DNA of 49,210 bases from NCBI GenBank assembly GCA_018710845.1, contig DVJB01000067.1, positions 1-49,210 of the forward strand, given 5' to 3'. The position numbers were made by a program, and so were the translations under genes. The notes beneath the pieces were generated by a model. The model ran no database searches. It saw nothing but the letters and a program-made list of their open reading frames with translations, and had not been told where the DNA came from. The first letter of the stretch is position 1. Each line of letters starts with the position of its first letter. Positions 25,000 through 47,800 of the stretch are shown in pieces. This stretch comes from Candidatus Onthomonas avicola. Lineage in GTDB: Bacteria > Bacillota > Clostridia > Oscillospirales > Oscillospiraceae.

Positions 25000-25074
25000 C
25001 CATCCCGGAGACGCCGGAGAAGGGACGCCGGATTCTGACATCTGAAATCTGAGAAAATCGAATCCATCGTGTGC

Positions 25075-25385
25075 GACCGGACAGGCTCAAATGGGGCGGG
25101 CCTGTCCGGTCAGTTTGTTGTCAGACAGCAGACTTGTCATCTGTGGCTAAGATCAAAATTTAGAAAGCCCTCCGCAGGAGTTTTGTTGCGTAGGCAACAA
25201 AACAAAATGCAATTCGTTTTGGGGACGGACATGTGCCGGCCCCAAAACACAGGGAGGTCGGGAGTGTGCCCGAAGGGCGCGCGAGCGACCGCATATTCGA
25301 ACAAAATCTACGATTTTGTTCGAGCGTGTCGATATGAATCGACACGCCGACCGGACAGGCTCAAATGGGGCGGGCCTGTCCGGTC
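25075..25385. repeat. Hairpin array bounded by two identical 37-nt stem-loops
   Basis: Region between the flavodoxin gene and a convergent membrane-protein gene. The bounding units 25075-25111 and 25349-25385 are identical: a 12-bp stem GACCGGACAGGC/GCCTGTCCGGTC with a 13-nt loop. Between them are perfect or near-perfect hairpins at 25180-25203 (10 bp, loop GTAG), 25216-25248 (9 bp plus 3), 25256-25290 (5 bp plus 8 bp with two G-T pairs, loop GAA), 25297-25323 (12 bp) and 25324-25347 (10 bp, loop ATGA). The last six hairpins lie almost end to end. No T runs follow them. No credible coding frame is present. Confidence 0.85.
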
Positions 25386-25405
25386 ATTGTCTTTCTTGGC
25401 GGTAT

Positions 25406-44810: not shown

Positions 44811-47800
44811 GTGAGCGACAGATATGATCAATGGATGAGCGATCATCCGAAAGAGTGGGACGAGTTGGACATCGACCGGCTGCTGCGCCAGCTGCGTGAG
44901 CCGGAGCCGTCGGAGGAACCGGAGAGTATTTCCGCCCAAGAGGAACCGGAGGGCATTGCCGCTCAGATGGAGCAGACTCCGGAAGAACCCGCCGCCCGGC
45001 CGCCTGTGCCGGAAGATGAGGGCGGGGAGAAGAACTCCATCCCGCTGCCCGTCCCGGAAGAAGACCTGGAGGAGCCGGAACCTCCTGATTCGGGGGCCCC
45101 AGAGGTCCTCCAGTGGCCTGTGCCGGAGGAGATATTCCACCAGCCCGCCCAAGAGGAGCAGCGGGAAGAGGCAGAGGAGGACGCGGAGCGTACCCCGCGC
45201 CGTTTCCGGCTGCCCGGTCTCGCCGGGCTGTTTCGCCGCCAGGCGTCGGAGGAGCTGCCGCCGGAGGACGATGTGCCCTCCGGCCCGGAGGAGGGCTTGC
45301 CGGGGAGAGCGGATACGGCTGTCCCCGCAGAAGACCGGCCGGAGGAAGCCATCCCTCCTGAACCCGAGACACCGGAGAAACGGGAGACACCGCCTCCGCC
45401 GGTCTGGACAGAGAGACAGGAGACACCGCCTCCACCGGCTTGGACAGAGGAACGGGAGTCCCCCATCTATGCGCAACCAGCGATGGATGAGCGGGAGCGG
45501 ACGGCGTTTGCCAGCGGACAGGTGGTCACGCTGCGCCTGAACCGCCGTGCCCGCCCGGTCCAGGAGCGGGCGGAGGAGGCCGATTTCTCCCGGAATTTGG
45601 ACGGAGACGTGGGCCCTGACCTGCTGACCGACCTTCTGCCGCCGCTCTCCCGATTCGGCGTGTCGGAGGATCCCGCCCCAGCGGATTCTGGAGAGAAGGA
45701 GCGCGCGAACGAGACTCCGGTGGCCACGCCGCCCGCCCCGGAGGAGCCAGCTGCCCCGGATTCTGAATCGGTACAGGAGGATCCGCTGCCGGAGGAGACG
45801 GAGACGCCGTCTGCCCCGGAGGAGCCAGCCGCCCCAGATTCTGAATCGGGACAGGAGGATCCGCTGCCGGAGGAGACGGAGACAGAGACAGAAATGCCGG
45901 CGGAGCGGTTCACGCTGTATTTCTCCCAGCCCGAGGGGCCTGCCCCCGTCCAGCCGGAGTTGTTTGACCAGGACGCCCCGGAGAAAGAGACGCCGCCCAC
46001 CCCGGAGAAGCCAGCCGACCCGGAGCTTGAAGCGGGACGGGAGGAGCTGCCGCCGGAGAAGACGGAGGCAGAGACGGAAATGCCGCCGGAGCGGTTCACG
46101 CTGTATTTCTCCCGGCCCGAGGAGCCTGACCCCGCCCAGCCGGAGTTGTTTGACCAGGACGCGCCGGAGAAAGAGACGCCGCCCACCCCGGAGAAGCCAG
46201 CCGCTCCGGAGCCTGAGCCGGAGCGGGAAGAGACGGCCGAGCCGCGCCCGGAGCCGACCCGGCGTATTCCGGTGCCGGAGCCGGTTCAGACAGACACGGC
46301 TCCGGAGGAAGCGCTCCCGGACGGGGACTGGGAAGAGGCACCGCATGGCCCCGGTCTGCTGGGCTGGCTGAAAAGCCTCTTCCGCCGTCCCGCGCCCGAG
46401 GAGGATGAAGAGGCCGGTCCGGGTGAGGAGGATGCGCCGGAGGAAAAGGTGATTCCCATTCCCAACCGGGAACCGGGCGGCCTAAGACGCCGTCTGGACC
46501 GGATGGGAGAGATGGCCGACCGGTTTGCCGAGACCATGTTCCAGGGTGACGAGCTGGTCGACGAGGAGGAGGAGCGCGCCCAGCGGATTGCCGAGCAGTA
46601 CATTCCCGGTACCGATGAGGAGCGTCCCACACGGCCCAAGCTGCGGCCGCGAAAGAAGCCGAAGCAGAAAAAGCCGGTGCGGCGTGCCCCGGACACCTCG
46701 CCCAAGCAGCTCGCGCGCAGCTATTACAGCAGCTGGAAGAGCACGAAAAGCCGCCTGCCGTTCCAGCTGGCCGTCGCTGTGCTGCTGCTGGCTTGCTCTG
46801 CCGTGGCGGGCGGGGAGTTGCCCTTTGTGACGGTACCCGCGCTGGCGGAGAATCTCCGCCTGACCGGCGCGATTCTGGCCGGCGGACTGGCCTTGGCGGT
46901 GGCCATCGGGCTGGACACCTTGCTGGACGGCGTCGTTCAGCTCTTCCGCGGCCGTCCGAGCCTGGGCACGCTCTCCTCCCTCGGCGTGCTCTTCACGCTG
47001 GTGGACGCCGTGTGGTATGCCGTCCCCGGACGGGACGGGCCGCTGCCGTTCTGTGGCTTTGCCGCCCTGAGCCTCTGGGCAATGGCCTGGGGCAACTGCC
47101 GGAAAAAGCGAGGGCTCTACCAGTCCTGCCAGATGGCTGCGGCGGTCACGCAGCCGCAGCGGCTCACGATGGACCACGGCAAGTGGGACAACAAGGGTGT
47201 CTTTATCAAGGAGACAGGCGGCGTACGCGGGTTCGGCAGCCAGATGCAGGAGCCGGACGGCGCGCAGCAGGTCTATCGCTACGCCGCGCCGGTGATGATG
47301 GCCGCCGGACTGGTCTTCGGCCTGCTTGCCGTCATCGGACAGGGGACTGCCCAGCACCTGCTGTGGAATTGGTCGGTGATCTTTGTGCTTGCCACGCCTC
47401 TGTCGGCCACTATGGCCTACGGGTTGCCCTATGACCGGCTGGTCAAGCGGCTCAACCGCTCCGGCGTGATTCTGGCCGGCTGGGAGGGCGTGGACTCGAT
47501 GCACGGCCCTGCCGGTATCGCCATCACGGACACCGACCTCTTCCCGGACGGGTATGTGCAGTTTAAGGGTATTAAGAATTTCGGGCAGGTCTCGCTGGAG
47601 AAACTGACCGGCTGTACCGCCTCCATGATCCGGGAGGCAGATACCGGACTGGCCAAGATCTTTGACGACCAGATCCGCACCCAGGGCGGCTTCTACCGCC
47701 GAGTGGACGACCTGAAGTATTCCGAGGCGGGCGGCTTTTCCGGCAGCATCCGCGGCGACCAGGTGCTCATCGGCTCGGCGGGATATATGAAGGTGATGGG

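Follow-up and report, generated by a model that had tools for sequence, protein, structure and literature searches.

Between a flavodoxin gene and a convergent gene of Candidatus Onthomonas avicola, seven stem-loops occupy positions 25075 to 25385 of a 49,210-nt stretch of DNA (contig DVJB01000067.1, hereafter the window), which raises the question of what they belong to. All seven are present where an earlier note, made from the letters alone, had placed them (25075-25111, 25180-25203, 25216-25248, 25256-25290, 25297-25323, 25324-25347 and 25349-25385). The segment 25060-25400 folds with an energy of -172.9 kcal/mol; 100 shuffled versions average -114.1, and none of them reaches so low a value (z -8.7). 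The segment also contains a small hairpin (H0, 25170-25180) absent from the note's list. The identity of the first and last stem-loops, given as 37 nt, extends to 39 nt (25074-25112 equal to 25348-25386). The note's remark that no hairpin is followed by a T run was mistaken, as the T-rich stretch ATTGTCTTTCTT lies behind the right outer hairpin. A pattern scan for terminators reported none at this hairpin, probably because the loops allowed were limited to 8 nt.

A dispersed mobile element in the window

The seven stem-loops belong to a dispersed mobile element, of which the window contains one copy. The own genome (2.39 Mb) contains 22 separate matching places, the window included, among them one fragment and one match of 36 nt; its longer copies are 83-87% identical across the core. 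Matches occur in 15 of the 32 genomes of the genus, and homologues are abundant in the own genome, genus, family and order, in agreement with one of the readings first offered, a dispersed repeat family of gut Clostridia. The homologue search that had been recommended thus returned many relatives, with stems that change with compensation, and did not refute what the note had proposed. Read side by side, most own-genome copies show a hairpin on each flank that differs between loci. The element between these hairpins starts with CAGNNTGTCRAAAAA and closes with the inverted form of this sequence, which often lies within a terminal hairpin. Sister copies have the same arrangement as the outer hairpins of the window, but with a hairpin specific to each locus. 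The whole element in the window covers 25113-25347 (235 bp) and carries no transposase gene. Its parts and flanks, with R1 and R2 denoting two covariance models and with pair counts from 29 diverse copies, are as follows:

25074..25112, + strand: left copy of the duplicated host hairpin, 39 nt, identical to 25348-25386; the element boundary is uncertain by ~2 nt
25113..25163, + strand: element left end and linker, from comparison with sister copies
25164..25323, + strand: conserved structured core, ~165 nt (R1 112.6 bits, R2 119.1 bits)
25170..25180, + strand: H0, CTCC-GCA-GGAG, read from the sequence; CTCT/AGAG in copies L035 and L096
25180..25203, + strand: H1, GTTTTGTTGC-GTAG-GCAACAAAAC; both-sided variation in 7 of 10 pairs
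25216..25248, + strand: H2, with the conserved loop RCNTGYR (ACATGTG in the window); both-sided variation in 13 of 13 pairs
25256..25290, + strand: H3, a two-part hairpin; both-sided variation in 4 of 6 outer and 3 of 8 inner pairs
25297..25323, + strand: H4, TCGAACAAAATC-TAC-GATTTTGTTCGA; both-sided variation in 11 of 11 pairs, in a loose alignment (67% paired)
25324..25347, + strand: element right end, hairpin GCGTGTCGAT-ATGA-ATCGACACGC, carrying the right terminal repeat
25348..25386, + strand: right copy of the duplicated host hairpin, followed by the native T-rich tract

The right end (25324-25347) matches, in inverted orientation, the left end seen in sister copies, and the left terminal repeat of the window copy is degenerate (CAGTTTGTTGTC versus CAGACTGTCGAAAAAG in sister copies). 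A native A/T tract is found on the right side only, the left being devoid of an A-rich tract. Elsewhere in the window, tandem repeats of 78 and 186 nt occupy 45726-46253, possibly inside a repeat-rich coding region.

Copies vary in their composition. Two structured inserts of ~45 nt, located in H2 and H3, are optional: their presence varies by copy in the own genome (L021-L027 and L029). A second, diverged subfamily with the same hairpin order is represented there by L030 (G000:C9:6400-6900) and L024 (G000:C55:10500-11200); its ends resemble GACTGTCAAAAAAG, and the C55 copy lies directly behind a copy of the first subfamily. Further long palindromes after the core, giving larger hairpin chains, are seen in another family of the order (L325-L329 in G184, G207, G225 and G267). 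A phage or plasmid origin was considered and rejected: an exact 20-nt pattern has 0 matches in viral_contigs, and phages gave 2 partial matches. A plasmid search returned one matching record, from Vescimonas fastidiosa MM35, with 5 places, the best being a core copy (98.3 bits). In the record NZ_AP023416.1 of this isolate, the core copy (L345) lies between a hypothetical gene and a convergent gene for an NhaC-family antiporter.

Duplicated hairpins and a probable IS1182-type partner

The outer hairpins are two copies of a terminator-type hairpin of the host, duplicated at insertion; they are not part of the element, because they differ from locus to locus. The suggestion of a MITE-like mobile repeat with hairpin ends is thereby retained for the mobile repeat and abandoned for the hairpin ends, which are a duplicated, locus-specific target. 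The genus set comprises 94 copies, of which 85 have both flanks (9 were dropped for short flanks); 15 loci without the anchor motif were left out of the flank comparison. The best local alignment of left and right flanks has a median score of 19, versus 8 for cross-locus controls, whose 99th percentile is 12.9 and whose maximum of 28 probably stems from orthologous copies. This 99th percentile is exceeded by 50 of the 85 genus copies. Removal of two copies scoring exactly 13, one of which (L024) is a match between element ends, leaves 48 (score >13) with a locus-specific hairpin on both sides; orthologous copies among the genus set (L043, L044 and L047) are not independent. Each of the 48 repeated segments folds into a hairpin, with a mean energy of -21.8 kcal/mol and -6.7 kcal/mol for the weakest. 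Relative to a fixed point in the core, the left hairpin copy ends 52-69 nt before it at the majority of these loci, and the right one begins ~175-190 nt past it in insert-free copies. A clear duplication is absent in 37 of the 85 genus copies and in 33 of 50 distant copies. The distant set consists of 50 of the 68 R2 matches, leaving out same-place repeats, weak or antisense matches, the window and L259. Seventeen of these 50 exceed their own control; 13 read as target hairpins, and the remaining four have weak folds (L245, L331 and L251) or a match of the element's own ends (L339).

Comparison with related genomes, also recommended in the earlier note, revealed one empty site, that of the sister copy L003, whose flanks are contiguous in genome G031 with the element absent; a single-copy hairpin is not recognisable there. 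A syntenic empty site for the window copy was not found in four relatives (G031, G012, G007 and G021). In these, the flavodoxin gene or the convergent gene ends, as judged by eye, at a single hairpin, and in G031 the two genes are on different contigs. The same genome G031 carries a short element (L301; C15, ~777 to 1038) with similar ends, which lies between two copies of its own hairpin and is devoid of the core. It occupies the site where the own genome has the core-bearing copy L008. Thus, one intergenic place has been used twice, and the core is dispensable for insertion or duplication.

The element ends are common to IS1182-family insertion sequences in related genomes. Domains of the IS1182-type transposase (PF13751) occur in 8 of the 32 genus genomes, above the cut-off in 6, with no match in the own genome; relatives of the L063 protein, some of them partial, are found in 7 of 150 family genomes (E<=1e-60). 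Scores with the IS1182 transposase model NF033551 (cut-off 270 bits) are 380.5 for L063, 353.1 for L064, 386.1 for L266 and 385.3 for L268, and the ends of these four resemble the MITE ends. The complete copies L266 and L268 have the same hairpin on both sides (35 and 31 nt; -33.1 and -24.4 kcal/mol). Among the six IS1182 copies for which both ends are visible, no others have matching hairpins: in L064 and L271 the left and right hairpins differ, and L267 and L273 show a clear hairpin at one side only. The right flank of L063 is missing, as the contig ends there. The own genome has an incomplete transposase gene that scores 212 bits, under the NF033551 cut-off, and is accompanied by a similar right end with a hairpin behind it. 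The core is absent from all 13 IS loci. Two IS1182 copies of G021, the intact L064 and the decayed L075, lie at different loci and adjoin nearly the same hairpin sequence, for which simple target duplication does not account.

Collectively, the shared ends, the duplicated hairpins and the empty sister site point to a MITE that is probably moved by an IS1182-type transposase; a MITE of IS1182 type within a duplicated hairpin is very likely. The segment 25113-25347 would be a non-autonomous MITE mobilised in trans by an IS1182-family DDE transposase. In a scheme modelled on that published for stem-loop insertion of IS1272, the enzyme would pick a target able to form a hairpin, which in the window was probably the terminator lying between the convergent genes; the element would be joined at the base of the hairpin stem, and repair would then leave a full hairpin on each side.

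With genes called by a simple script, 55 loci comprise 22 convergent, 14 tandem antisense, 8 tandem sense and 1 divergent arrangement, and 10 with an uncalled side; in 44 of the 45 places with both neighbours called, one or both genes have their 3' end facing the element. This position at gene ends is as expected from terminator targeting. No sense preference was found in tandem contexts, and a 3'-UTR element functioning only in sense orientation is countered by the 8 sense and 14 antisense placements. In the 48 copies with duplicated hairpins, the native-facing sides are richer than the element-facing sides in A (5.0 versus 2.9 per 10 nt, p 6e-7) and in T (4.4 versus 3.0 per 10 nt, p 1e-5). 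Since the native A/T tracts are kept on the outer sides, a neighbouring gene usually meets its near hairpin copy without a U-tract, and its transcription should therefore cross the core and stop at the far hairpin. Judged from these tracts, neighbouring genes may transcribe the core by read-through, their transcription passing the near hairpin copy, crossing the element and ending at the far copy. A consensus promoter scan gave a single sigma-70-like match in the scanned stretch of the window; it lies inside the element, on the - strand (25332-25305; 9 of 12 positions).

The structured core and its possible role

Model R1 was built from 22 genus copies and R2 from 29 diverse copies, and the core at 25164-25323 is the sole window match of each. 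At E<=0.001, R1 finds the core in 51 of 150 family genomes (40 of 106 genera), and R2 finds it in 48 of 295 order genomes, 27 of them outside the own family. R2 also finds it in 7 of 291 class genomes; four of these are outside the order, with only G460 strong (52 bits, the others ~30). Copy numbers per genome are lower bounds, few candidates having been scored. A search of the whole window with Rfam 15 at gathering score gives two tRNAs only and leaves the core unmatched. The window copy and one relative give sub-threshold matches only at E up to 10, as do five further loci at E up to 0.5 (best 25.6 bits versus a cut-off of 75).

The stems vary with compensation, as the earlier note had proposed to check. 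In the 29 copies, hand-chosen for diversity, 38 of 51 pairs change on both sides, in 182 cells, and 84.3% of cells pair. Shuffles of the same copies give 71.4% paired, 22.7 pairs and 61.8 cells, and a control with slid partners at most 50.5% paired, 23 pairs and 78 cells. When H2 was aligned on its loop instead of its pairing (80 of 83 copies, those with the loop motif), pairing reached 94% in 44 distinct arm pairs; it was 38-63% when the arms were out of register and did not exceed 75% when they were permuted. H0 shows no both-sided change among the 29 diverse copies, and one U·G pair of H3 is present in 29 of 29. Very likely, the core is a five-hairpin chain that selection on base pairing has maintained across an order of bacteria. 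For the joint claim of a MITE with hairpin duplication and of selection on the fold, leaving aside any step that involves RNA, confidence is high.

Other readings of the core were tried and rejected. A long-range helix proposed by RNAalifold (GC-CUCC/GGAGGC) is, by eye, not retained in distant copies, and the local H0 fits better; the helix is uninformative because it is invariant in the 22 genus copies. RNAalifold run on 58 cores (the insert-free, distinct copies out of the 94) was misled by misaligned stems. A coding core, suggested by eye from a Shine-Dalgarno-like GGGAGG followed by a GUG frame, is contradicted by one-base indels in the H3 loop that break the frame between close copies.

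The strand that folds can be approached through mismatches in the palindromes. Scored without preference, these comprise 113 G·T and 38 A·C. Among genus copies, G·T is in excess in 41 and A·C in 2, with 16 equal; among distant copies, the numbers are 8, 3 and 13. The + strand has the lower energy in 73 of 83 copies (mean difference -5.9 kcal/mol), as compared with -2.9 on average for shuffles (71% lower on +) and just -3.1 for distant copies. The 83 copies are what is left of 106 R1 matches without 20 below 28 bits, the window duplicate of L001, L030 and a cut match of L004. The excess of G·T over A·C, together with the invariant U·G pair, favours the + strand as the folded molecule, short of proof.

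That the core works as RNA at all, in line with the note's reading of an undescribed structured RNA, is about as probable as that it does not. Against such a role stand the modest strand asymmetry of folding, the missing sense preference and the - strand position of the one promoter-like match. With the same even degree of belief, its most likely form would be a folded RNA of the + strand that acts within the extended transcripts produced by read-through. It is tempting to go further and to see here a new class of mobile structured RNA, a promoterless cargo that hops between terminators throughout an order, is transcribed from neighbouring genes owing to the hairpins left on its two sides, and keeps a conserved RNA function while its sequence and ends diverge; this wider proposal is tentative and falls somewhat short of an even chance.

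Several alternatives compete with a folded RNA. DNA hairpins with small GNA loops are very stable, and the core may be a DNA-level device, with hairpins that extrude or fold as single-stranded DNA and aid transposition or protect the element, so that RNA is unneeded. The placement relative to genes, without sense preference, is consistent with such a device, as are compact copies such as L257, L332 and L333, in which a promoter would hardly fit ahead of the core, and IS1182-family enzymes do act on hairpin DNA (PMC5678879, PMC4923244). However, insertion does not need the core, as seen from the core-less L301 and from the 13 IS loci, and the mismatch bias and U·G pair just described favour the + strand. 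A DNA device is possible on this evidence and rather doubtful. Alternatively, the core could be an element useful to the host, regulating or stabilising the 3' ends of genes and spread by the transposon. Its place at gene ends would agree with this, and the core is retained beside a gene in some copies whose ends cannot be recognised, for instance in L261 directly after a stop codon. But sense and antisense placements are both common, terminator targeting alone explains the location at 3' ends, and the gene calls rest on a simple script; such a role is unlikely.

Two explanations that dispense with a transposon of this type fare worse. Group IIC introns insert beside terminators, but a retroelement of that or another kind targeting terminators is largely excluded and very improbable, since inverted terminal repeats and a target duplication are present and no Rfam match to an intron was obtained. 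Convergent genes often share terminators, but a chance cluster of these is refuted by the fold (z -8.7), the 22 places in the own genome and the homologues in other families.

Relation to known systems

The general kind of element is known, and its core matches no RNA family among those searched; a literature search, not exhaustive, found no title on the element. IS1182 members may have long direct repeats. A non-coding transposon core under base-pair selection across several bacterial families is not something that a purely parasitic MITE needs, and learning why it is conserved would give new insight into short mobile repeats located at the ends of genes.

Structured RNA travelling with a DNA transposon is exemplified by IStrons, which combine a group I intron and an IS; the RNA of IStrons is a self-splicing intron as presented in PMC4227781, whereas nothing in the present element points to splicing. 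BOX, RUP and SPRITE of Streptococcus pneumoniae are likewise intergenic, MITE-like hairpin repeats, some of them terminator-like, and differ in that duplicated terminator hairpins are unmentioned in the description that PMC10969869 gives of them. The ISMac2-type, IS1182-derived MITEs of Methanosarcina acetivorans are also short and non-autonomous (160 and 169 bp); their target repeats are apparently 4 and 0 bp, and a structured core goes unmentioned in the relevant portion of PMC3852290. For ISPse1, an IS1182-family element of Paracoccus, 4-bp repeats are listed (PMC3281130), a point against the present interpretation.

A further parallel is provided by IS1272 and TnSha1 of staphylococci, in which an IS1182-family transposase inserts into hairpins without primary-sequence specificity; the targets of IS1272 include mapped terminators (PMC5678879, PMC4923244). 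According to these two papers, IS1272 deletes its target stem-loop partly or completely and yields no duplication, whereas in the present element the whole stem-loop is duplicated. In the account of PMC5678879, duplication of a whole stem-loop is drawn only as one branch of a model (pathway b). The copies described here provide dozens of natural examples of this outcome of IS1182-type transposition, and thereby make the mechanism testable.
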